Positions 36,703 to 51,920 of a stretch of 64,000 bases of DNA are shown here, one piece after another. This DNA is from Natronococcus sp. AD-5. Its GTDB lineage: Archaea > Halobacteriota > Halobacteria > Halobacteriales > Natrialbaceae. The notes under the pieces were generated by a model. The model did not search any database. It had not been told where the DNA came from and saw only the letters and a list, made by a program, of their open reading frames with translations. How positions within the stretch are numbered: the stretch's first letter is position 1; every line of letters begins with the position of its first letter. The position numbers and the translations under genes were made by a program. The stretch lies in contig NZ_CP132294.1 in assembly GCF_030734285.1 (NCBI RefSeq), forward strand, positions 186,001 through 250,000. Direction: 5' to 3'.

Positions 36703-38535
36703 TTAGGCTTCGTCTTCCAGGTTCTCCTGCCAGTCGAGGTAGTACCCGGTCGCCTCGGTCGGCATCTTGGAGGTGTCAGTGTTCTTCGGTTCGAACCCGA
36801 AGTGACCGTACGCGACGTCCGGCCAGCTCCAGATCCAGCCGAGCGAGTACATCTCGAGGTCACCGTTTTCACCGCGATCCTGGATCGTCGAGAACTGCGT
36901 TTCGTCGTTGGAAATCTCGACCGGGAGGTCACCGAGCTTCTGGTTGATCAGCTCGGCCATCTCTCCGTACTCCGGGGCGGACTCGTACGTGGAGGCCGTC
37001 AGCTCGAACGGCTCGTCCTCGGTGAACTTCGTCTCCTCGAGCACCTCCCGTGCGCTCTCGACGTCGGTCTCGTTGACGCCGTACGGCCATTCGTCGACCC
37101 ACTCCTCGTAGCCGTCGTCGCCGGTCGGCCACATTCGCGGCGGGGTGAAGCTGAACGCCTCGAACCCGCGCTCCTCGAGGACGTCTTCGATGAGCTCCTC
37201 GTGATCGACGGCGTACGCGATCGCCTGTCGGACGGGTCGCGGGACGTTCGTGACGTTAAACGCGAAGTAGTACGTCGCCAGTTCAGGGACGGCGAGATAG
37301 TTTGTCTCCTCGCCGTTCTCGAACGGACCGTACGTGCCGACCTCGCGACCGCTGTCGTCCTCCTCGGCGTCGATCAGGTCGGGATCGTACTGGGAGGTCG
37401 GGATCGAGCTGTTTTCGAAGACGTCCGCGTTCTGCTCCATTACGTAGGTAAACCGCGACTCCGGATCTTCGTTGATCTCCCAGTGGACGGACTCGATGCT
37501 CGCCACGGTGCCGTGGTAGTTGTCGTTGCGGACGACCCGCACCTCCTCGCCGGGAGTGAATTCGTCGAACTCGAAGGGACCGGTCCCGTTGGCCATCTCG
37601 GTCCGGAACTCGTCGTGCTCGACCTCGCCGTCGTACCCTTCGACGTCGCCGACGATCCCTTCCGGAACGATGGCGAACCCGTGGTAGGTGAGGACGTCCA
37701 GTACGGCCGGGTTGGGTTCGCGGAGGGTGAGTTCGACGGTCCGGTCGTCGACGGCCTCGACGCCGATCGAGTCGGGGACAACGCCGCCGTCGTCGTCCTC
37801 CTCGTGCTCGATGCCGAGCCCCAGCGGCGTATCGAGGATGAAGTTCCGTCGCTCGCTGTGCTCGGATTCGGCGAGCCGGCGGAACGAGTACACGACGTCG
37901 TCCGCCGTCAGTTCCCTGCCGTCGTGGAACTGGACGCCCTCTTTGAGCGTGAACGTCCAGATCGTGCTGTCCCAGGAGGCTTCGAACTCCTCGATGAGCT
38001 GGTTTTCGACCTCCGCGACTCCGTTGGGGTAGTGGGTCAGAGTCTCGTAGATCTGGTTGACGACCGTTCTCGGCGCGGCGTCGGTCGACATGATCGGATC
38101 CACTTCGTCGAAGCTGCTGATGATGAGGTTCAGCTCGGTATCCCCCTCGATCTCCACCTCGTTGTACTGCTGGTGGTATGACCCGAGTGCACCTATCTCT
38201 GGGATGTCCACGTAGTCGTACCAGAACCGTTCGCCCTTGCTGTGGTACAGCGGCAGCAGGACCATATCGTCCCTGACGGCCTCCTCGATCTCGACGTACG
38301 CCTCGTTACGGATGCCCTCGGCATCGGGGCCGGGATTCTCCAGGACCGTTTCCCAGGCTGCCTGCGCCTTATCCGCGTGCTCGTTCACCTCGTAATTGGT
38401 CTCGTCGTCGTCCTCGTCATCATCGTTGAGAAGAGCAGAACAACCAGCGAGCCCCACGGTCGCGCTTCCCCCGAGAAGCGCGAGCAGCTGTCGTCGCGAC
38501 TGATCTACACTTTTCCCATCCGGACTATCGGTCAC
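36703..38535 (-). CDS. Family-5 peptide-binding lipoprotein, circularly permuted (DppA-like, copy 1)
   Basis: 610-residue Dpp/Opp-type solute-binding lipoprotein. The Tat-type signal SRRQLLALLGGSATVGLAGC ends in the lipobox (LAGC). The order of segments is unusual. Residues about 47-130 (AQAAWETVLENPGPDAEGIR, AVRDDMVLLPLYHSKGERFW) resemble the last part of a normal family-5 protein. The canonical start (LNLIISSFDEVDPIMSTDAA, QIYETLTHYPNGVAEVENQL) follows at about residue 134. The protein ends with TGYYLDWQENLEDEA, where the missing tail would continue. So the sequence is a rotated family-5 fold. The GTG start at 38535 has a TATA-like box about 40 nt upstream. It lies on the minus strand; the damaged transporter genes are 1.4-8 kb upstream of its start. 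Confidence 0.88.
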   Translation of the reverse strand: MTDSPDGKSVDQSRRQLLALLGGSATVGLAGCSALLNDDDEDDDETNYEVNEHADKAQAAWETVLENPGPDAEGIRNEAYVEIEEAVRDDMVLLPLYHSKGERFWYDYVDIPEIGALGSYHQQYNEVEIEGDTELNLIISSFDEVDPIMSTDAAPRTVVNQIYETLTHYPNGVAEVENQLIEEFEASWDSTIWTFTLKEGVQFHDGRELTADDVVYSFRRLAESEHSERRNFILDTPLGLGIEHEEDDDGGVVPDSIGVEAVDDRTVELTLREPNPAVLDVLTYHGFAIVPEGIVGDVEGYDGEVEHDEFRTEMANGTGPFEFDEFTPGEEVRVVRNDNYHGTVASIESVHWEINEDPESRFTYVMEQNADVFENSSIPTSQYDPDLIDAEEDDSGREVGTYGPFENGEETNYLAVPELATYYFAFNVTNVPRPVRQAIAYAVDHEELIEDVLEERGFEAFSFTPPRMWPTGDDGYEEWVDEWPYGVNETDVESAREVLEETKFTEDEPFELTASTYESAPEYGEMAELINQKLGDLPVEISNDETQFSTIQDRGENGDLEMYSLGWIWSWPDVAYGHFGFEPKNTDTSKMPTEATGYYLDWQENLEDEA

Positions 38536-38861: not shown

Positions 38862-39011
38862 CTGCACCACAGTACTTAGGGTGAGCAACGCTCCGTGGCG
38901 GAGCGAGACCTCCGTCGAAGCGGCCCGCGACCAGCGTGACGTACGGAAGGATCGACGGCGAACGCGGCTCGAGCCCGCCCGCTTTTGGTCACTGCGTTAC
39001 AATCGCTGCGC

Positions 39012-39938
39012 ATGATAGATTCGGTTCGACGCGTACTATCCGGACTCCGAAATCCGGAGTACACCGGCGAGAACCGGTGTGTGCCGTGCACGGTCGTTAA
39101 CGTCCTGATCGCCGCCGCCGTGAGCGTCCTGGTCGGGCGGCGATCGCGCAGGGGCGGCGTCATCACGTTCGCAGGATCGTTTGCCGCGATCGCTCTCCGC
39201 GGCTATCTCGTACCCGGAACGCCTACGTTGACGAAACGGCACCTTCCGGATCGGATCCTCGCGCAGTTCGACGACCACCCGCTCGAGGATCAATCGCACG
39301 CGTTCGAGGGCCGGTTTGAGGAGCAACAACGGCAGCGGAACCGAGAGCAGTCCGACGAACTGACGACGGAGTCGATCGAGGAACTCGAGCGCCAGCGGGA
39401 GAACGCGGTCGACCCCGAACGATTCCTACTCGAGGTCGATGCCGTCAAACCGTGCGAGAATCAAGCGGACCTCTGTTTCACCGACGAACTCGCCGACGCG
39501 ATCGACGAACGGATGGCCTCGCTCCCCGACAAGCCGGTCGACCGAGCGCTCGTCGCCGAGTTGTACGGCGTCGAACCCGAGGCGGTGACCGTCAAGGAGC
39601 GGTCGTACCCCGCTGTCACGATCGGACGGCGAGTCCACAAGTGGCCTGCGGAGGCTGCGCTCGCCGCCGACCTTGCAACCCACCGGGCGCTGGGCGAGCT
39701 GACCGACCGCTGGACGGACGTCCCGCAGGGCCAGCGCATCGAACTGCTCGAGATGTTGCGCTCGTTCCACGACACCTGTCCGGACTGTGGCGGACCGATC
39801 GCACTGAGCGAGGACACCGTCGAGTCGTGTTGCCGATCCTACGAGGTGCTCGCGCTCAACTGTGAGGACTGTTCGGCGCCGCTGCTCGAGTTCGATCCGA
39901 GCGAGATCGGCGGCACCGACGGCGGCATCGAGCCCTGA
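39012..39938 (+). CDS. Conserved haloarchaeal membrane protein with cysteine-rich C-terminus
   Basis: 308-residue protein from the ATG at 39012. A CVPC motif is near residue 24 followed by a hydrophobic helix (VVNVLIAAAVSVLVG) and a second (GVITFAGSFAAIALRGYLV). A charged, helical middle contains ERQRENAVDPERFLLEV. The C-terminal 60 residues carry a zinc-ribbon-like set: DTCPDCGGPIALSE, SCCRSYEV and NCEDCSAPLLEF. No function is known to me. It runs convergently towards the damaged dppB gene, only 33 nt away. Confidence 0.75.
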   Translation: MIDSVRRVLSGLRNPEYTGENRCVPCTVVNVLIAAAVSVLVGRRSRRGGVITFAGSFAAIALRGYLVPGTPTLTKRHLPDRILAQFDDHPLEDQSHAFEGRFEEQQRQRNREQSDELTTESIEELERQRENAVDPERFLLEVDAVKPCENQADLCFTDELADAIDERMASLPDKPVDRALVAELYGVEPEAVTVKERSYPAVTIGRRVHKWPAEAALAADLATHRALGELTDRWTDVPQGQRIELLEMLRSFHDTCPDCGGPIALSEDTVESCCRSYEVLALNCEDCSAPLLEFDPSEIGGTDGGIEP

Positions 39939-39971: not shown

Positions 39972-40953
39972 TCAACGGGCACCCGTATCCACCCGCGGAT
40001 CGAGACTGCTATAGGCGACGTCCTGAACGACGTTTCCGACGATGCCGACGGCGATGATGACGAGCGTGCACCCGAGCACGACCGGAAGGTCCCGCAGGTG
40101 GACCGCTTCGAAGAGCAACAGGCCGAAGCCGTCGATCCCGAACAGCGACTCGATCACGAACACGGCGAGGACGAGTAGGGCGAGAACCTCCGTGAACAGC
40201 ATCGAGAACAGCGGAATCGCCGCGTTTCGGACGATGTGTTTCGCGATGCGGCTCGGTCCCGCGCCCTTCGCCTTCACGAGCGTGACGAACTCGGCGGCCT
40301 CGTACTCGAGCGAGTGTGCGCGCGCGTAGCTCGCGTACGCCCCGAGCAGCGTCGTCGCGGTCAACGCGATCGGGAGCAGGTACTCGAACGTCAGGCTCGA
40401 ACGGGGGATCCGGTCGTCCGCGGCCAACGAGAGGAGCATGCCACCGATCCAGAAGTTCGGCACCGCAAACAGCAGGTACGCGGTCCCCGACCCGGCCCTC
40501 GCGAGTCGACGCTCCGGACGCAGCGCGGCGTACAGTCCGATCAGCATCCCCAGCGCGACGGCGATCGCGATCGCCGGGACGACGTACGTCGCGGTCCGAG
40601 CGACGGCGTCTACGACCATGGGGAACACGGGCTCTCCGGTTTCGAAAGCGCCGCGTTCGACTGCGAACCGCTACCGATGAAAAACGAGTCCCCCAGTCGA
40701 GCGTGAGCATGCTCCCCATCCAGTCCACGTACTGCTCCCACAGCGGGCGGTCGAGTCCGTGCGTCGCGAGATATTCGTCGACGGCATCCTCGACTTCGCG
40801 ATCGCTGGCACCCCGGTACCGCATCGCCCCCTCGAGCCCGCCCGCGACCCAGTCTCGGCTCACCGTAAAGGCGGCGAACACCGCCGTCAGCACCGCCCAC
40901 GCGGCGACGGCCCCCAGTGCGACTCGCTTCGCGACGATCCGAAGCAAGCTCAC
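39972..40953 (-). pseudogene. Peptide ABC transporter permease DppB (copy 1), two frameshifts
   Basis: From the GTG at 40953 the product reads MSLLRIVAKRVALGAVAAWA and continues to WMGSMLTLDWG, including the usual extracytoplasmic GLDRPLWEQYVDWMG. It then needs one added base in the C5 run 40690-40694 to read DSFFIGSGSQSNAAL, and one more near 40626-40632 to enter VFPMVVDAVARTATYVVPA. The rest is intact to the end, including the EAA-type coupling loop FVTLVKAKGAGPSRIAKHIV. Both defects are single-base losses. It is divergent from dppC and the ATPase genes. As read, the permease cannot be made. Confidence 0.9.
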
Positions 40954-41202
40954 GGCGACCGCCCTCGATTCGGTGCCGGCGGATCGATCGATCGGAGCCG
41001 TTTTCGCCCGTCTCTCGAGTCGACCGTCGACCAGTACTCCATCGAACACTGGTAGTAAGTGTCACACGAAAAGCGTATCGGATTTCTGACGCGCTCCCGC
41101 CGGACGCTCGTGGACGACATATCATATAGGTTTATTATATTTCAGTTACTCGTTCCGATCGACTCTACGGGGGGCGCTGACGATCGACACCGATTCGAGC
41201 GA

Positions 41203-42359
41203 GTGGAGTGGGACGAACTCGACGGGTCGCGTCGCCACCTCACGTCGACTCGAGCAGCACTCCTCGCCGGACTCGCGTTCGTCGGCTGCGTCTATCTCCT
41301 CGAGAGCGCCGGCGTCGACGTCACCGGACGACGGTTCGGTCGCCTCGACTGGGTGATGCTGCTCGGGACGACCGTCCTCTTCGCGGGCGGGCTGGTGCCT
41401 GCAGTTCGGCATCGAGCACTGCTAAAGCGGATCATGCGCCGACTCCTCTCGCGGCCGAGCCACGCGGCGGCCGCGACGTTTCTGATCGGACTCTCGCTCG
41501 CGGCCGTCCTCGGATCGCTAATTCTCGGCTCTCCGGACCTCGCCTTCCAGCACGCTTTCACGCGCCGTACGGATTCACGAGCGTCAACAGCTGGCACGCG
41601 GAGTGTCTCGGCGGAATTACGGAGGGTGAAGGGATCACCCGATACTGTGACGGGACGATGACCTATCCGCTCGGAACGAACGAGCGCGGTCATCCGATGG
41701 GACACCTGCTCGTCGAGGGCGCGCGCGTGACGCTCTCGGTGCTTGTCTTTACCGCCGCGTTCGTCGTGCCGCTCGCGACGATCGTCGGAATCGTCGCCGG
41801 CTTCCGCGGCGGCCTCGTCGACGACCTGCTGATGAGCTACGTCGACGTACAGCTGTGCATCCCCGCGATCGTGGTCTTCTTCATCGGCTACATGTACTGG
41901 AACGTTTCGCTCCTCCTGTTGCTCGTCACGTTCGGGCTGCTCAGCTGGGGCGGGATCGCCCGTCTCGTCAGGAGCGAGACGTTGCAGCGCCGCGAGGACG
42001 GCTACGTACTCGTCGCCCGCAGCCTCGGGGCCTCGCGATCGTACGTCGCGAAACGCCACATCGTTCCGAACATCACGAACACGCTCGTGCCCGCGATATT
42101 TCACCTGCTCGCGCTGCTGGTGCTCGTCGAGGCCGGTGTCGCCTTCCTCGGCTTTCACCACGTCGAACTCTACTCCTGGGGATCGACGATGCAGGAGGGA
42201 CTCGATCCCCACTTCTCGGGGATCGGTCTCTCGATGCACCCGCACCAGGTCTGGTGGGTCTCGACGTTCCCCGCGATCGCACTGACGCTCACGCTCGCGT
42301 CGCTCAAACTCGCCGGCGACGGCGTTCGCGACGCGCTCGATCCACGCAACAGTCATTGA
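41203..42359 (+). pseudogene. Peptide ABC transporter permease DppC (copy 1), frameshifted
   Basis: The N-terminal frame (GTG at 41203, MEWDELDGSRRHL...) runs through two helices to PDLAFQHA. The rest continues in another frame from FHAPYGFTSVNSWHAECLGG through the membrane domain and the coupling loop YVLVARSLGASRSYVAKRHI to DALDPRNSH. One base is missing near 41551-41558. The start is tentative because no ATG lies in the right place; a TATA-like TTTATTATA is at 41131-41139. The dppD gene starts 5 nt after the stop. Confidence 0.88.
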
Positions 42360-42364
42360 TACCG

Positions 42365-43436
42365 ATGTCGACCCAACACCGCCCATCGACGCGACGAGAA
42401 CAGTCCACCGGGAGCCCGCTGCTATCGGTCGACGACCTTCGCACACACATCCGGACCGAGCGGGAACCGATCCGCGCCGTCGACGGCGTCAGCTTCGAGG
42501 TCGGCCGCGGCGAGACGGTCTGTCTCGTCTGCGAGTCCGGCTGCGGCAAGAGCGTCACCTGCAAGTCCCTGACCGGCATCCTCCCGGAGCCGCCGGCCAA
42601 CGTCGTCGGCGGGAGCGTCGAATTCGACGGGCAGTCGCTTCTCGAGGCGGACGACGATCGGCTGCGACGGATTCGCGGCGACCGGATCGCACACGTCTTC
42701 CAGAATCCACGGAGCGCGCTCGATCCGGTCTACACGATCGGCGATCAGCTCGTCGAAGCGATCACGATCCATGCCGACGTCTCCATAATCGACCGCGCGC
42801 GAGCGCGCGATCGATCTCCTCCGACGAGTCAGCATCCCGCGGGCCGACAGTCGGATCGACGGCTATCCCCACGGATTCTCCGGCGGGATGTGCCAGCGCG
42901 CCGCGATCGCGATCGCCCTCGCTTCCGACCCCGAACTGCTGATCGCCGACGAACCGACGACCGCCGTCGACGTTACCGTCCAGGCCCGGCTGATCGAACT
43001 GCTCCGGGAGCTGACCGACGGCGGGATGGCCGTGCTGTTGATCACCCACGACCTGCGGGTCGCCGCCGCCCTCGCCGACCGGTTGCTCGTGATGTACGGC
43101 GGGACGATCGTCGAACGGGGACCGCTCGAGGAGTTGTTCGACCGTCCCGCCCACCCCTACACGCAGGCGCTCTTCGAGAGCTACGCCGGCCGCTCGAGCG
43201 ACGGCGATCGAACCGCCCGCGGCGACATTCCGGCGGACGGCTGTCGGTTCCGCGCGGAGTGTCCGCACGCGGTCAACGCCTGCGACGGCGGGGAGCAGCC
43301 ACCGACCCGCGCCGTCGACGGTCGGGAGAGCCACGGCGTCTCCTGCGTCCACTACGGCCCCGACTGCGACCCGACGTCGATACTGACCGACGCCGCGGCG
43401 ATGGGACCGATCTCGACGGAGGAAGCCGATGACTGA
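42365..43436 (+). pseudogene. Peptide ABC transporter ATPase DppD (copy 1), frameshifted with altered motifs
   Basis: The ATG at 42365 opens an OppD/DppD-type ATPase. At about 42793-42808, in an alternating CG tract, the frame changes by one extra (or two missing) bases; the rest continues as AIDLLRRVSIPRADSRIDGY and the signature SGGMCQRAAIAIAL. Two motif residues differ from the family: Walker A reads CESGCGKSV where G is expected first, and the signature has C where R is usual (MCQR). Walker B LLIADEPTT is intact. The missense changes in addition to the frameshift argue that the gene has truly decayed. It overlaps dppF by 8 nt. Confidence 0.88.
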
Positions 43437-44738
43437 ACGGCCCGTCGGCGACGCCGGCGAAACGCCGCGCGGAGACGACGCGGCGCTTCTCGAGGTCGAG
43501 GACCTCGAGACGCACTTTCCGATCACCGAAGGGTGGCTCCGTCGGAAAACCGGCCGCGTTCGCGCCGTCGACGGCGTCAGCTTCGAGATCCGTTCCGGCG
43601 AGACGTTCGGACTCGTCGGCGAGTCCGGCAGCGGCAAGACGACGGCGGCGCACTCGATCCTCCGGCTCGAGGAGGCGACGGGGGCGAGATCCGATTCGAC
43701 GGCGACCGCGTGACGGAACTCGCCGGTGCCGACCTCCGGCGGTTCAGACGACGGGCGCAGCTCGTCGTGCAGGATCCGGACGAGGCGTTCAACCCGCGGA
43801 TGACCATCGGCGAGGCTGTAGCCGAGCCGCTCGCCCTCCACGGGATGGACGACGCCGACCGTCGGCGCGCGATCGTCGAGGACCTCCTCGAGCGGGTCGG
43901 GCTCGAGGCCGCCGACGGCGATCGGTTCCCACACGAGTTTTCCGGCGGGCAGAAACGGCGCATCTCGATCGCCCGCGCGCTCGTGCTTAATCCGGATCTG
44001 ATCGTCGCCGACGAACCGACGAGCGCGCTGGACGGTCGGGTCAAGTCGGACATCCTCACGCTGCTGGACGAACTTCGGCGGGAGTTCGACATCGCGGTGT
44101 TGTGCATCAGCCACGACATCGACGTCGTTCGCCGGTTCTGCGACCGGATCGGCGTCATGCACCTCGGAAAACTCGTCGAAGCGGGCGAGACCGCGGACGT
44201 GCTCGAATCGCCCGCTCATCCCTACACACGGATCTTGCTGGGTTCGATTCCGAGTCTCGATCCGACCGATCGGGACCTCGCACGGCCGCTGACGGAGACG
44301 GTTCCGGACCCGGCCGACCCGCCCTCGGGCTGTCGGTTCCACACCCGGTGTCCGGAGTTGATCCCGCCGAGCAACGTGGCGCTCTCTCGGGGGTGCTGGC
44401 GGACGATCGCCCGGTTTCGCTTCGCTGTTCGGGAGGGAGAGTTCCCCGCGGAGATCGCCGTCGAAACGGACGAGTCCCCCGTCGACGAATCGGCGGTTCG
44501 CGCGGCGTTCGACCTGCCGCCGACGATCCCGGACGAAACCGTCGATCGCGCCGTCGACGACTCGGTTCGGTCGCTCAGCGATGGCGACCTCGAGACCGCG
44601 CGGGCGCGACTCGCCGACGCGATTCCGACGGTCTGCGAGCGACGCGAGCCGAAATCCGGCGACGAGCGCGGCCGCGCGGTCCGGTGTCACCGCTACGACT
44701 CGTCGATCGAGGCCGAGCCGCTTCCGTGGACGCGATAG
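43429..44738 (+). pseudogene. Peptide ABC transporter ATPase DppF (copy 1), frameshifted
   Basis: The N-terminal frame holds Walker [16 protein letters not shown] and ends at LRLEEATG. Adding one G to the G5 run at 43680-43684 gives [18 protein letters not shown] and opens the rest: signature SGGQKRRISIARAL and Walker B LIVADEPTSA. The C-terminal region has the oligopeptide-ABC [14 protein letters not shown] block and a long haloarchaeal insert before the last conserved CHRY. As read, no functional ATPase is made. It ends the broken dppC-D-F run, 55 nt from the next gene. Confidence 0.88.
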
Positions 44739-45414: not shown

Positions 45415-46809
45415 TCAGTCGTCGGCGACGGCATCGCCCGTGCCGCCGTTCGACGAGCGGAACTCGCCGTCGACGTACCGGTCGTCGTACAGGAGACACG
45501 CGATCTCGTGCGTCTCGCCCGTCCGGACGTGTTCCGGATCGTGCACCTCACACGGGGACGTGAACGTCTCGTCGAGCAGTTCTCGAGCCGTCTCGAAGTC
45601 GTTCGCGTGGAGCGCGTCGACGACTTCCGAGAGGGTTTGTTCGGCGACGGAGTCGGCCACCGCGTTCGGGAGGTCGAACTCGTCGCGAACCAGCTCCTCG
45701 AAGCGTTCGCGGGACACCGCGTTCGGATCGACCCGTTCGCCCTGCGTGCCCTCGATTTCGTCCACCGCGGTGATCGCCTCGAGGTCGTCGGCGTCCATCA
45801 CCCGGAGCTTGAGGTCGACGATCGATCGCCAGACCTCCTGCGGCAGGTCGATCTCGTCGGGCGGGATGATACGCGGACACCGGGTGTGGAACCGGCAGCC
45901 GGAAGGCGGGTTCATCGGCGACGGAACGGTGCCGGGCAGGAGGATCTGCTCGCCCTCCCAGAGGGGGTCGGGTTCGGGAATCGCCGAGAGCAGCGCCTCC
46001 GCGTACGGGTGGTGCGGCGGCGAGAACACCTCTTCGGTCGTCCCGATCTCCGCGAACTCGCCGAGGTACATCACGGCGACGCGGTCGGAGATGTGCTCGA
46101 CCACGCTCAGGTCGTGCGCGATGAAGATGTACGAGAGCCCGAACTCCTCCTGAAGCTCCTCGAGCAGGTTGAGGATCTGCGCCTGTACCGAGACGTCGAG
46201 CGCGCTGACCGGCTCGTCGCAGACGATGATTTCGGGGTCGACCGCGAGCGCGCGGGCGATCCCGATACGCTGGCGCTGCCCGCCGGAGAACTCGTGCGGG
46301 TACCGGTGGGCGTGGCTCGGGCTCAGCCCCACGGTCTCTAAGAGCTCGTAGATCCGGTCCGTCCGCTCCTGTCCCTCCGCGATGTTGTGAATGTCGAGCG
46401 GCTCGCCGATGATGTCGCCGACGGTGAGCCGCGGGTTCAGACTCGAGAACGGGTCCTGGAAGATGTACTGCAGGTCCTTTCGGAGGTCGCGAAGCTCCGA
46501 ACTCGAGAGGTCGGTAACTTCGATCTCATCGCGGCGGGACGGATCGTCGTCGACCCGCTGCTGGTAGTAGACCGAGCCGTCGGTCGGCTCGATCAGCCGC
46601 AGCAACGCTCGCCCGAGCGTACTCTTTCCGCAACCGGACTCGCCGACGACGCCGAGGGTCTCGCCCTCGTACAGTTCGAGATCGATTCCGTCGACGGCCT
46701 TGACCCACTGCGAGCGTCCGAGCAGGTTGTCTATGACGCCCTCGCTGGTGTCGTAGTACTTCGTCAGGTCCTCGGCCCGCAGGAGGGGCTCTTCGTTCGG
46801 TCTCGTCAT
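45415..46809 (-). CDS. dppF: Peptide ABC transporter ATP-binding protein DppF (copy 2)
   Basis: 464-residue ATPase. Walker A is [20 protein letters not shown] (about 54), the signature [19 protein letters not shown], Walker [13 protein letters not shown] and the switch FIAHDLSVV. The oligopeptide-type C-terminus starts [20 protein letters not shown] but is interrupted by an about 95-residue, mostly helical insert before [20 protein letters not shown]. The damaged copy at 43429-44738 has an insert at the same place, so it is a lineage feature. It overlaps dppD by 4 nt and completes a dppABCDF operon. Confidence 0.93.
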
Positions 46810-47900
46810 TGTCGATCACGCTCCGGGTTCGGGGCGGTCGCGCCGGCTCCGGCTTCGGCCTTAGCCGACTCGGAACGGATCTCGACGGAGTAGTCGAGGC
46901 CGTTTTGCAGGTCGCCGGTGTACTCGAGACACGCGGCTGCGCGCTCGGTATCGGTACCGGTGGCTTTCGCACCGGTTTCCGGGTCGAGCAGTGACGGCTC
47001 TCGTTTCGTACAGACGTCCTCGGCGTAGGGACACCGCGGGTGGAAGCTACAGCCCGGCGGCAGTTCGACCAGATCGGGCATCGAGCCAGGAATCGTCTGG
47101 AGTCGCTCCCGATCGGTGCCGACCCGGGGGATCGAACTCATCAGGCCGACGGTGTACGGATGTTTGGGGTCGTAGTAGAGCTCCTCGACGGGGGCCTTCT
47201 CGACCGGCTTGCCCGCGTACATGACCATCACGCGGTCGCAGACCTCGGCGACGACGCCAAGGTCGTGCGTGATGAGCTGGATGGCCGTGTCGAACTCGTC
47301 CGCCAGACTTTCGAGTTCGTCCAGGATCTGGGCCTCGATCGTCACGTCGAGCGCGGTCGTCGGCTCGTCACAGAGCAACAGATCCGGATCGCAGGAGAGC
47401 GCCATCGCGATGACCGCACGCTGTTGCATCCCGCCGGAGAACTCGTGTGGATAGTCCGAAAAGCGCGATTCGGCCTCCGGAATCCCGACGGTGTCGAGCA
47501 ACTGGATCGTCCGCTCGCGGGCTTCCTCCTCGTCGTAGTCGAGGTGGTGTCTGACCGCCTCGGCGATCTGCTCGCCGACGGTGTAGACGGGGTTCAGCGC
47601 CGTCTGTGCGTCCTGGAAGATCATGGCGATTTCGTTGCCACGGACGTCCCGGATCTCTTTTTCGCTCATCTCGAGGAGGTCCTCGCCCTTGAACAGGATT
47701 TCGCCGCTCTCGATGCGACCGGGACTCTCGATGAGCCGCATCAGCGAGAGCGCGGTGACGCTCTTGCCGGCCCCGCTCTCGCCGACGACGCCGAACTTCT
47801 CCCCGCGCTCGATGCGGTAGGAGAGGTCGTCGACGGCGGTGACGACCCCTTCTTGCGTGTAGAACTTTACCGTGAGATCGTTGACCTCGAGTAGTGCCAT
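46806..47900 (-). CDS. dppD: Peptide ABC transporter ATP-binding protein DppD (copy 2)
   Basis: 364-residue ATPase. Walker A is GVVGESGAGKSVTALSLMRL (about 36), the signature SGGMQQRAVIAMAL and Walker B LLLCDEPTTALD. The oligo_HPY-type tail contains CSFHPRCPYAEDVC, normal for this family; the final 50 residues are a low-complexity, Ala/Gly/Glu-rich tail. Motif residues that are changed in copy 1 (Walker A glycine, signature Arg/Gln) are normal here. It is 2 nt after dppC and overlaps dppF. Confidence 0.94.
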   Translation of the reverse strand: MALLEVNDLTVKFYTQEGVVTAVDDLSYRIERGEKFGVVGESGAGKSVTALSLMRLIESPGRIESGEILFKGEDLLEMSEKEIRDVRGNEIAMIFQDAQTALNPVYTVGEQIAEAVRHHLDYDEEEARERTIQLLDTVGIPEAESRFSDYPHEFSGGMQQRAVIAMALSCDPDLLLCDEPTTALDVTIEAQILDELESLADEFDTAIQLITHDLGVVAEVCDRVMVMYAGKPVEKAPVEELYYDPKHPYTVGLMSSIPRVGTDRERLQTIPGSMPDLVELPPGCSFHPRCPYAEDVCTKREPSLLDPETGAKATGTDTERAAACLEYTGDLQNGLDYSVEIRSESAKAEAGAGATAPNPERDRQ

Positions 47901-47902
47901 AG

Positions 47903-48952
47903 TTACCCACCTCCTTGCTGTTCGATGCCGGTTTCCTGGGCGTCGAACGCGTCGTTGATTCCGTCACCGATCATGTTCATCGCCATCACGAAGACGAAGA
48001 TCGCGCCGCCGGGGAAGACGGTCGCCCACCAGGGGATCGATCCGTCGGGACCCTGAATGAGCGTGTCGCGAGTCTGGTCGAGCATCGTCCCCCACTCGGC
48101 GGTGCCGGGCGGCATCCCGAGACCGAGGAATCCGAGCGCAGCGACGCCGATGACGACCGTACCGATATTGAGCGTCGCGACGACGATCATCGGCGGCATC
48201 GCGTTCGGGACGATGTGTCTGAAGATGACGGATCGGTCGCGTGCGCCGAGTGCCTTCGCCGCCATGACGTACTCGTTTTCTTTGACCGTCAGGACCTCAC
48301 CGCGGATGAGACGCGCGTACGTCACCCAGCCCGGAAGCGCGAACGCGGCGACGAGTTGCCAGTAGCCACCGCCGAGGACTGCGACGATGATCAGCGCCAG
48401 GATGAGCGCCGGGAACGCGTAGACGGTGTCGACGATTCGCATCAGGATCTCGTCGACCCAGCCGCCGTAGTAGCCGGAAATGGCCCCGTAGACCAGTCCG
48501 AAGACGCTGGTGAGGGCGACGACGACGAAGCCGATCGAGATGCTGTACCGACCGCCGTAGAGTACGCGCGAGAACAGGTCGCGCCCGTTTCCGTCGGTCC
48601 CCATCGGATGGGCGATCGTCGGCGGATCGTAGATGCCCGCATCCGAACCCGGGATCATATACAGGATCGTCGTCGGATCGTACGGCGCGAGTGCGAACGG
48701 CTGGACCGTCACGCCCATTACCGTGAGCGGCCGTGCGAAGAGCGCGAGCAGGGAGAGTACGGCGACGACGAAGAGGCCGATCAGTGCGGAACGGTTCCGC
48801 TTGAATCGCTTCCAGGCGCGCTGGAATCGGCTTTCGGTCTCTCTGCTGCTCTCTTCGGTCCACCCCGACAGCGGCTCCCGCTGTCGGACGTTCTCCGCGT
48901 CGAATCCGGAAACCTGGATCCGTCCGCGCTCGGTGTGTTCGTTGCTAGTCAT
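47903..48952 (-). CDS. dppC: Peptide ABC transporter permease DppC (copy 2)
   Basis: 349-residue permease. A cytosolic N-terminal region of about 50 residues leads to the first helix (RSALIGLFVVAVLSLLALF); a long extracytoplasmic stretch with THPMGTDGNGRDLFSR-type residues (IAHPMGTDGNGRDLFSR) follows; the coupling loop is YVMAAKALGARDRSVIFRHI. It overlaps the end of dppB by 8 nt. Unlike copy 1, the frame is open throughout. Confidence 0.95.
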   Translation of the reverse strand: MTSNEHTERGRIQVSGFDAENVRQREPLSGWTEESSRETESRFQRAWKRFKRNRSALIGLFVVAVLSLLALFARPLTVMGVTVQPFALAPYDPTTILYMIPGSDAGIYDPPTIAHPMGTDGNGRDLFSRVLYGGRYSISIGFVVVALTSVFGLVYGAISGYYGGWVDEILMRIVDTVYAFPALILALIIVAVLGGGYWQLVAAFALPGWVTYARLIRGEVLTVKENEYVMAAKALGARDRSVIFRHIVPNAMPPMIVVATLNIGTVVIGVAALGFLGLGMPPGTAEWGTMLDQTRDTLIQGPDGSIPWWATVFPGGAIFVFVMAMNMIGDGINDAFDAQETGIEQQGGG

Positions 48953-49901
48953 ATCTGATTCTCGGATCGAGTACTGCGTACAGGATGTCTGCCAGCAGAT
49001 TCGCCAGGATGATGAACACGCCGGTAAACAGCGTGATCGCCATGATGAGATTTATCTCTCGCTCGTTGATCGCCGTGATGAACTCCCGGCCGAGTCCCGG
49101 CCAGTTGAACACCATCTCGACGACGACCGAGCCGGCGACGATACCCGCGGTCAGCGTCGCGGCGAGCGTGACGACCGAGATGAGCGAGTTCCGGAGCACG
49201 TGTTTGAGAACGACCGTCCGCTCGGGCAGTCCCTTCGCTCGCGCGGCGGTCACGTACTCCTTGTTCAGTTCCTCGGCCATCGACGTGCGCATCACGCGCA
49301 TGATACTCGCTGCGGCGGCGGTCCCGATCGTGATTCCCGGGAGGACCAGGTACCACAGCATCTGGGGGTGGTACAGCGCGTGCCGGGACGGCGGAAGCAC
49401 CGGCCACAGTCCCAGCCAGAGGGCGCCGATCAGGATCAGCATCAGGCCGAGCCAGAAGTTCGGAATCGAGATGCCCGAGAGGGCGAGAAACCGACTGGCG
49501 GTGTCGGCGAACCGGTCCTTGTTGACGGCCGCGTAAATCCCGGACGGAATCGCGATCACGAGTCCGAACACCCAGCCGAAAATACCGAGGGCGATCGTTT
49601 CGGGGAGTCGCGTCGCGATGACTTCCGAAACGTCACGGCCGGAACCGACGACTTCGCCGAAGTCGCCGGTCAGGATGTTCCCCATCCAGGTCAGGTACTG
49701 CTCCCAGATCGGGCCGTCGAGGCCGTACCGGGCGCGTAGTTGGGCCTCTTCGGCCGGCGTCACGTCTGGATTCATCGCGACCATCTGGTCGATCGGGTCA
49801 CCCGGCGTGAGGTGCACCATCGCGAAGGTGATCACCGAGACGCCAAACAGGATCGGCACGATCGATAACAGTCGCTTCAGTATGAAACGTCGTAAGCTCA
49901 T
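48945..49901 (-). CDS. dppB: Peptide ABC transporter permease DppB (copy 2)
   Basis: 318-residue permease with about six helices. The N-terminus is MSLRRFILKRLLSIVPILFG; GDPIDQMVAMNPDVTPAEEA and LDGPIWEQYLTWMGNILTG form the extracytoplasmic region, and the coupling loop is YVTAARAKGLPERTVVLKHV. Start 54 nt after dppA, stop overlapping dppC. Complete and in frame. Confidence 0.95.
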   Translation of the reverse strand: MSLRRFILKRLLSIVPILFGVSVITFAMVHLTPGDPIDQMVAMNPDVTPAEEAQLRARYGLDGPIWEQYLTWMGNILTGDFGEVVGSGRDVSEVIATRLPETIALGIFGWVFGLVIAIPSGIYAAVNKDRFADTASRFLALSGISIPNFWLGLMLILIGALWLGLWPVLPPSRHALYHPQMLWYLVLPGITIGTAAAASIMRVMRTSMAEELNKEYVTAARAKGLPERTVVLKHVLRNSLISVVTLAATLTAGIVAGSVVVEMVFNWPGLGREFITAINEREINLIMAITLFTGVFIILANLLADILYAVLDPRIRYD

Positions 49902-49955: not shown

Positions 49956-51920
49956 TTACTCGAGGTCGTGCTCGTCGACTACTTCTTCGAGCAGTTCCGC
50001 GGCGGCTTCGGGATCGTACTCGTTGTACGGCTTGATCGTCGACACGAGTTCGTCGGTGTCGACGGTCCCGGTCTCCTGGGCGAGCTCCGGCACGTCGGTC
50101 CAGGCCGGACGGGCCCAGCCGTTCAGCACGTTTTCGACGATCTGTTCGCGCGGAATGAGGTGGTTGATGGCCTGTCGAAGCCGCTTGTCGTCCCACGGCA
50201 TCTCGTCGCCGGCGGCGCGAATCGGGTACTGGATGTACTCGTACCCGCCCGCCTCGACCGCATCGACGACGTAATCGTCGGAGCTGTCGAACTCGTCGAG
50301 GTCCGACGTGGAGAGCCCGTACGTGATGTCGATTTCGTCGTTCTGCAGCGCGGCGGAGCGGCTCGAGTCGTCCGGAACGATCCTGATTTCGATGTCGTCG
50401 ATGACGGGACCGTCCGGGAACTCGTCGGCGACGTCGGACCACTTGTCGCTCGCTTCGATCTTCTGTTGGAGGCCGATCTCCTCGAGCCAGTAGCTGTCGT
50501 TTTTCGTGTACTCGACGTACTGCTCGTCGGAGAAGTCGGCGAACTCGTAGGGACCGGTCCCGATCGGATCGTTACCCTGTCGCGGGTCGAGGTCGCCGCC
50601 CTCGAGGTCGGCCTGCTCGAGCGAGTGGATGTACAGCGTCCCGGGCAGTTCCCGTTCCGCCTCGGCGTCGGGAACCTGGGCGTAGAGGTTGACCGTGTAG
50701 TCGCCGTCCGCTTCCGCGTGGAGCAGCGAGTCGAACGTCTGGGCCTCGAGGTCGGAGTTGTAGAGGCGTTCGACGGTCGCGATCACGTGCTCGGACGTGA
50801 ACTCCTCGCCGTTGTGGAACGTCACGCCCTCGTGGAGGTCGTACTGGAACTGCATTCCGAAGGTGCCGTCCTCGGCCGCTTCGGCGGCGTCGTCGGGAAG
50901 AAGGACGCGAACCTCGTCGTCCTCGACCGGATCGTCCTCGGGGTGGTAGACGATGACCTGCTCGTCGGTGTCGAGGATGCCCTCCTCGTCCGCGCCGACG
51001 GTCGACATGTACGGCTCGTAGTCGAGTCGTTCGACGTCGTTGGTCTCGACGAGCTCGTAGTCCTCGGCGAGCCACGGGTAAAGGTTGCCCTCGCTGTCCG
51101 ACGTGACCAGCGTTTCGAAAATGAAGAACTGTGCGAGGCTTGCGGTCGTGTCGGTGCTGTACGGCGGATCGAACGAAGCGACGTTCGCGCCGACGGCGCC
51201 CCGGAGGGCGCCGCCTTCCTGCAGGTCGGAGAGATCCGTGTCCCGCGGATCGGACTCCTCGTCGATCCACATGACCTGCTCGTCCTGCGGGGAGTGAAGC
51301 GCGTAATCGAAGATGCTCTCCGAGAACGGGAACATGCTGAACCCGTGCACGTTGTTGTTCGTCACGCCCGCCTCGAGGTCGAAGTGCGTGATCGAACTGT
51401 ACCGTTCCTCGGCGAGGTGCTCCCAGATCTCGTCGTATCGTTCGGCGCGGAACTCCTCGTCTTCCGCGACGTCGACGCCGTACCGAGCGTCGTCGAGCAT
51501 CTCGTCGAGATCGGAGTCGTCGACGCCGACGAGGTTACAACACTGGCCGTGGTTCGTGCTGTGGTGGAGCGCCTGACAGAAACTCTCCGGGTTGAACGTT
51601 CCCGAGAGGCCGATACAGGGGACGACTCCCTCTTCGGCGTACTCGAGGTCCATCACGCGCTCGACGTAGTTATTCCACTCGTAGGTCTCGATCTCGGTCG
51701 TGAAGTACCCCGACTCTTCCAGCGAGGCCGAGATTAGGTCGACCATCTGCACACGGTCGTCGTTGTCAGAGTTGACCTCCAGCTGAACGTGGAACGGGGC
51801 ATCGCCGCCCTCGTCGCCGCCGAGGCACCCTGCAACTGCTGCGATACTGACTCCACCAACACCCTGAAGCAATCGTCGCCGATTGACGTCAAGGGAGGAT
51901 TGCTTGTGATCCTGCACCAT
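49956..51920 (-). CDS. Family-5 peptide-binding lipoprotein, circularly permuted (DppA-like, copy 2)
   Basis: 654-residue solute-binding lipoprotein with a Tat-type signal (NRRRLLQGVGGVSIAAVAGC). Segment order is rotated. Residues about 43-235 are what usually forms the C-terminal lobe: HVQLEVNSDNDDRVQMVDLI, then IETYEWNNYVERVMDLEY, LHHSTNHGQCCNLVGVDDSD and RAERYDEIWEHLAEERYSSI. Then comes the canonical N-terminal lobe, GGALRGAVGANVASFDPPYS (about 236). The protein ends at YDPEAAAELLEEVVDEHDLE, where the usual C-terminal lobe would begin. Joining the end to residue 43 restores a continuous family-5 sequence. The rotation point differs from copy 1. It heads the intact dpp operon; a TATA-like box lies about 26 nt before the ATG. 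Confidence 0.92.
   Translation of the reverse strand: MVQDHKQSSLDVNRRRLLQGVGGVSIAAVAGCLGGDEGGDAPFHVQLEVNSDNDDRVQMVDLISASLEESGYFTTEIETYEWNNYVERVMDLEYAEEGVVPCIGLSGTFNPESFCQALHHSTNHGQCCNLVGVDDSDLDEMLDDARYGVDVAEDEEFRAERYDEIWEHLAEERYSSITHFDLEAGVTNNNVHGFSMFPFSESIFDYALHSPQDEQVMWIDEESDPRDTDLSDLQEGGALRGAVGANVASFDPPYSTDTTASLAQFFIFETLVTSDSEGNLYPWLAEDYELVETNDVERLDYEPYMSTVGADEEGILDTDEQVIVYHPEDDPVEDDEVRVLLPDDAAEAAEDGTFGMQFQYDLHEGVTFHNGEEFTSEHVIATVERLYNSDLEAQTFDSLLHAEADGDYTVNLYAQVPDAEAERELPGTLYIHSLEQADLEGGDLDPRQGNDPIGTGPYEFADFSDEQYVEYTKNDSYWLEEIGLQQKIEASDKWSDVADEFPDGPVIDDIEIRIVPDDSSRSAALQNDEIDITYGLSTSDLDEFDSSDDYVVDAVEAGGYEYIQYPIRAAGDEMPWDDKRLRQAINHLIPREQIVENVLNGWARPAWTDVPELAQETGTVDTDELVSTIKPYNEYDPEAAAELLEEVVDEHDLE

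Follow-up and report, generated by a model that had tools for sequence, protein, structure and literature searches.

Natural circular permutations are usually old and found between distant relatives. The protein described here, P0002, is encoded in a window of 64,000 nucleotides from the genome of Natronococcus sp. AD-5. It has its core sequence family, and the predicted fold over residues 1-441 of 1dpp, in common with the canonical binding proteins DppA and OppA (1dpp, 1ola, 6npo), and, like these, P0002-type lipoproteins head a Dpp operon in relatives. Unlike in DppA/OppA, however, the last ca. 66-80 residues of the fold are N-terminal in P0002.

Among binding proteins tethered to the membrane, TpMglB-2 (Tp0684) of Treponema pallidum is also naturally permuted; it is a sugar-binding lipoprotein of 'Type Ic / Cluster Bc', for which the authors suggest tethering or export as the reason for the permutation (PMC4990184). 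This protein has a cluster B fold in which the first part has moved to the end, with poor identity in the permuted part (PMC4990184), whereas the P0002 family belongs to cluster C, has several breaks and contains orthologues of both orders that are more than 55% identical. Permuted binding lipoproteins are known in cluster B, and the P0002 family stands out by unusually many close pairs in both orders; a literature search, for the most part of papers available without subscription, found no permuted SBP_bac_5 protein and no haloarchaeal case. P0002 is very probably a circularly permuted cluster C lipoprotein of the SBP_bac_5 type, belonging to a family in which permutation is recurrent and most likely came about via tandem duplication and trimming, and an orphan in its genome.

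Gene and chain order of P0002

The P0002 gene (36703-38535, minus strand) has a GTG start and encodes 610 amino acids. Read directly from the sequence, the signal peptide (residues 1-31, 38443..38535) is of the twin-arginine (Tat) type (SRRQLLALLGG) with the lipobox LAGC, and is followed by the lipid-anchor Cys32 and a short, acidic, low-complexity linker (residues ca. 32-50, 38386..38442). Arg14, Arg15 and Cys32 are near-invariant across 41 aligned rows of class B (permuted like P0002), and with its RR motif and lipobox P0002 reads as an exported binding protein with an N-terminal anchor. Next come the moved segment (residues ca. 51-131, 38143..38385), consisting of two helices and a strand, and the core (residues 132-610, 36706..38142), which ends ...GYYLDWQENLEDEA and corresponds to 1dpp residues 1-441. 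The match to PF00496 (SBP_bac_5) scores 220.2 bits (curated Pfam cut-off 32.4) and covers residues 175-576, positions 1-355 of the 368 in the profile. With the segment at residues 51-131, P0002 departs from the canonical SBP_bac_5 order and counts as a permuted relative instead of a canonical member. The gene is under constraint (dN/dS 0.16-0.24 against three relatives).

Order and break are established by orthologues of both orders. In canonical orthologues (L028, L081, L084, L098, L082 and others), the counterpart of residues ca. 132-606 comes first and that of residues ca. 51-130 forms the C-terminus. These proteins are 51-59% identical to P0002 over the core, and in the 15 closest canonical rows the C-terminus matches the P0002 segment at 45-63% identity; in L081, the core (132-604, 59%) is followed by the segment (49-130, 63%). 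Permuted orthologues are collinear with P0002 at 40-84% identity. The canonical orthologues thus bear out the initial annotation, which placed the last part of the normal fold at the front of P0002 and residues 47-130 inside the SBP_bac_5 fold, since they carry this stretch at the C-terminus; the C-terminal piece that moved is ca. 80 residues long (51-131) instead of the ca. 85 first given.

Predicted structure

An AlphaFold2 model built from 41 class-B sequences folds well over residues 50-606 (mean pLDDT 83.9, segment blocks 85-95), with pLDDT below 50 for residues 1-49. The segment is modelled as helices 50-66 and 70-90 and a strand 93-106. A DppA/OppA fold is confidently predicted, with Z scores of 24-27 to OppA/DppA-type chains over ca. 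390-428 residues, and the 50 structural matches listed are binding proteins of the OppA/DppA/NikA/AccA type. In a sequential alignment, model residues 133-607 match 1-441 of the 507 residues of the 1dpp chain (Z 25.7, rmsd 2.9, 409 aligned), leaving unmatched the last 66 chain residues and the N-terminal segment of the model, both as a permutation predicts. Solved chains generally cover about residues 126-607 of the model without their chain end being reached.

A profile of canonical orthologues aligns to 6npo almost to the C-terminus (profile 4-528 of 550, chain 40-543 of 546). With the permuted profile, the moved segment is absent from every match to solved structures among the matches listed, which comprise the core only. 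Rotating P0002 did not improve its single-sequence phmmer match to the PDB (81.9 bits, native 81.5), and there was hardly any gain in a rotation scan whose model left out the P0002 family; these tests are weak for P0002 because its segment has diverged too far from that of distant relatives. The phmmer matches of canonical L081 in the PDB mostly end before the segment.

Break positions across the family

A second permuted binding protein in the window, P0001 (49956-51920, minus strand), starts with a signal peptide and linker (residues 1-36, 51813..51920) also found at the N-terminus of canonical L137. These are followed by the moved segment (residues 37-222, 51255..51812), the last part of the normal fold, which is C-terminal in canonical orthologues (up to 64% identical), and by a fusion linker and core (residues 223-654, 49959..51254) that corresponds to 1dpp residues 1-345. 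For this protein the extent of the moved part is corrected to ca. 186 residues (37-222). Permuted orthologues of P0001 are 51-83% identical, canonical ones up to 67% over the core; L137 reads signal, core, segment, and a few of its break residues align to both ends of P0001. The P0001 model is weaker (mean pLDDT 68.5) and aligns to 1dpp 1-345. Five distant paralogues (L151, L152, L153, L083:2790-4559 and L087:7003-8688; 24-32% identical) are collinear with P0001 in its permuted form; this order (class A) may thus be fixed in an older family.

That the two proteins have different break points, with the later one in P0002, is upheld, because the alignment to 1dpp stops at residue 345 for P0001 and at 441 for P0002; the breaks, at DppA ca. 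345 and ca. 441, are ca. 96 DppA residues apart. In P0002 the chain opens in a loop (DppA ca. 441/442) that follows the 'GYYLDW' strand and precedes the helix 'QKAQEAWE'. Class C proteins (L100, L120, L121, L122) open before the helix 'YPYG..ARxxMEEAGYG', and in class D (L145), seen in one genome of 76% completeness, the first ca. 95 residues of the mature fold are at the end. There are thus four break positions, and permutation in this family is recurrent.

The genome to which the window belongs encodes 13 proteins with SBP_bac_5 (14 matches), six of which look permuted: P0002, P0001, L009 (class B) and, from the rotation scan, the class A-like L008, L010 and L013, L010 weakly so. Permuted orthologues (L200-L203) and canonical relatives (L204-L212) both occur in the L009 subfamily. 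In the scan of the 13 proteins, rotation raised the scores of L008 (182 to 219 bits) and L013 (89 to 115) at near full-model coverage, with small gains for L010 (138 to 148) and L007 (42 to 52, model without its family) and no real gain for L005 (model without its family), L009, L011 and L012; for L001-L004 and L006 the best-scoring start is the native one or a neighbour of it. Class B is assigned from orthologues and not from the scan. L097:5392-7656 is permuted as well and has a long Gly/Asn/Glu/Thr-rich C-terminal tail that resembles its own N-terminal linker.

Number of origins

The rotated alignment of the P0002 family has 73 rows, 45 of class B, 27 canonical and one of a third order. L040 and L042, for which the script gave no class, were set to canonical by hand from the alignment, and the rows L046 and L054 are identical to each other. 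Doubly sampled loci, rows below 35% identity and own-genome paralogues were left out, and L108-L123, including the class C proteins L120-L122, are not in the tree. The set for the P0001 family omits L151-L153 (another subfamily), L155, L163 (stop), L198 (copy of L145) and L150 (E-value). Groups for the AU tests were named by chain order, not taken from the tree.

A clade of all 45 class-B rows was rejected with the full rotated alignment (p=1e-90) and with the core only (p=0.001), as L079 groups with canonical L033 and class C L100. For the 44 rows that remain when L079 is left out, a clade was rejected with the full alignment (p=0.0165) and not with the core only (p=0.127), so a single main class-B origin stays possible. 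Canonical L081 and L084 are nested among class-B rows, with weak core support for L081 (64/39) and good support for L084 (98/88); their identity to class-B rows is the highest in most windows over the whole length. In the P0001 family, a clade of the 35 permuted rows was rejected with both the full alignment (p=2e-5) and the core (p=0.002), the segment-only tree also leaves the permuted rows split, and canonical L187 is sister to permuted L162 (100/99; 100/98 on the segment). Gene conversion of the core was considered for the nested canonical rows and, in the P0001 family, is not supported by the segment-only tree; as segment-only and core trees both split the permuted rows, core conversion alone is no explanation.

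More than one origin, or a reversal, of the permutation is therefore well supported, and in each of the two orthologue families the order changed independently at least twice. The suggestion in the initial annotation that permutation arose more than once is borne out by unpermuted orthologues of both proteins, by L079 outside the main group, by further breaks and by gene trees on which the permuted rows form one clade in neither family. In the P0001 family, either the same loop was broken several times or the order was lost and regained. A reversal scenario, which we consider possible but less likely than not, has a single origin of each break in every orthologue group, with a later return to the canonical order in some lineages (L081 and L084; L187; a ten-row clade of L179-L185, L188, L189 and L137). 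This takes the fewest changes, three on the P0001-family tree if loss is allowed against ca. five gains, counted by hand, otherwise, and it agrees with the split of permuted rows in segment-only and core trees and with L187 as sister to L162. Nevertheless, at the junction L081 and L084 still have the 'DS' motif of the outer canonical clade and a loop of the length found there, as if never broken, and a reversal would require the same loop to have undergone duplication and trimming once more; the data do not discriminate between parallel gain and reversal. In a phylum sample of 148 genomes, matches outside the order are to parts of the core only, which leaves the chain topology there undecided.

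Route of origin

The permutation-by-duplication model reportedly predicts a fused tandem copy as intermediate. Such a form is present at G039:C1:2362113-2365619 (L213/L215), where a single ORF reads signal, core, segment, core, segment, with halves that share 68% identity at the protein and 77% at the DNA level; removal of the first core and the last segment gives the class B order. In the listed matches, which span 392 genomes, this is the only such dimer. It is a relative of the L009 subfamily, in which class B also occurs, and thus belongs to a sister subfamily and not to the P0002 lineage. Its ORF encodes a single signal of the Tat type and ends in a charged tail, and no lipobox was seen. 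Neither the P0002 nor the P0001 family showed a duplication intermediate, and a search for segment remnants downstream of 45 class-B genes gave no credible match (best E=0.003, opposite strand). Tandem duplication followed by trimming, as initially proposed, is thus a plausible route: tandem-duplicated genes as intermediates are represented by this in-frame dimer of a related subfamily, but not by remnants behind P0002-type genes. Most likely, the mature domain would have been duplicated in frame and then trimmed of the first N-terminal part and the last C-terminal one.

Transfer of just the segment from the 3' end, by copying or excision, into the repeat-rich linker that follows the lipobox, with no duplication of the whole domain, is an unlikely though serious competitor. 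The linker is of low complexity and variable in length, and L097 ends in a Gly/Asn/Thr-rich, linker-like tail; on the other hand, class A would need ca. 186 residues to be moved, a tandem dimer exists, and P0001 keeps a few break-loop residues at both ends, which fits duplication with trimming. It is highly improbable that one old permutation with a sliding break, as the initial annotation had also considered, yielded both P0001 and P0002: both are permuted paralogues within one window, but their breaks are far apart, and each permuted group adjoins canonical orthologues (up to 59% identical over the core for P0002 and 67% for P0001), so that neither break is a shifted form of the other. An unrelated N-terminal domain or an assembly artefact at residues 51-131, to which the PF00496 match does not extend, is practically out of the question, as it is contradicted by orthologues that carry the segment (up to 63% identical) at the C-terminus without a front copy, and by the same order in 44 different class-B genes from many genera.

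Operon setting and implications

In relatives, genes for the binding protein, two permeases and two ATPases lie in a row, with the binding protein in either chain order (L045 and L088 permuted, L098 canonical), as based on the ORFs of these three loci and on Pfam matches for L088 and the two L098 permeases. The DppB that usually accompanies P0002 in the operon is absent from the genome of the window (best match 35%). P0002 is an orphan in this genome, with its usual permease missing, so it would either serve another Dpp-type importer or lack its own channel. A candidate partner is the importer of P0001 next door, where P0001 heads an intact DppBCDF set on the minus strand: a DppB-type permease (48945..49901; PF00528, PF19300), a DppC-type permease (47903..48952; PF00528, PF12911), a DppD-type ATPase (46806..47900; PF00005, PF08352) and a DppF-type ATPase (45415..46809; PF00005, PF08352). 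Alternatively, P0002 may be a conserved binding protein without a channel of its own.

A second Dpp-type transporter cluster in the window (39972-44738) looks decayed, with a minus-strand permease split over two frames near 40630-40670 and a DppD-like ATPase spread over several frames around 42410-43376. Between P0002 and this permease lies an ORF of 317 residues (38985-39938) with CxxC pairs and no Pfam match.

In P0002 the natural termini are fused and the chain opens instead at the loop near DppA 441/442, with Tat signal, lipobox and acidic tether staying in front. In the DppA/OppA fold the old chain ends adjoin. P0002 may still close on its ligand like DppA/OppA, because the old ends are close together and a long flexible tether would be indifferent to the loop from which it starts. 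Permutants may also be easier to tolerate when Tat exports the folded protein. More tentatively, chain order could be evolutionarily labile and perhaps reversible in this family, with repeated flips for which Tat export and a disordered tether allow opening at several loops.

The few annotated records that were looked at carry the plain name 'ABC transporter substrate-binding protein', under which differences in order are easily missed. Orthologues that are 55-67% identical differ in chain order, with several breaks, the same operon type and a tandem dimer in a sister subfamily, which makes the origin, the cost and the possible reversal of a circular permutation testable in culturable haloarchaea.
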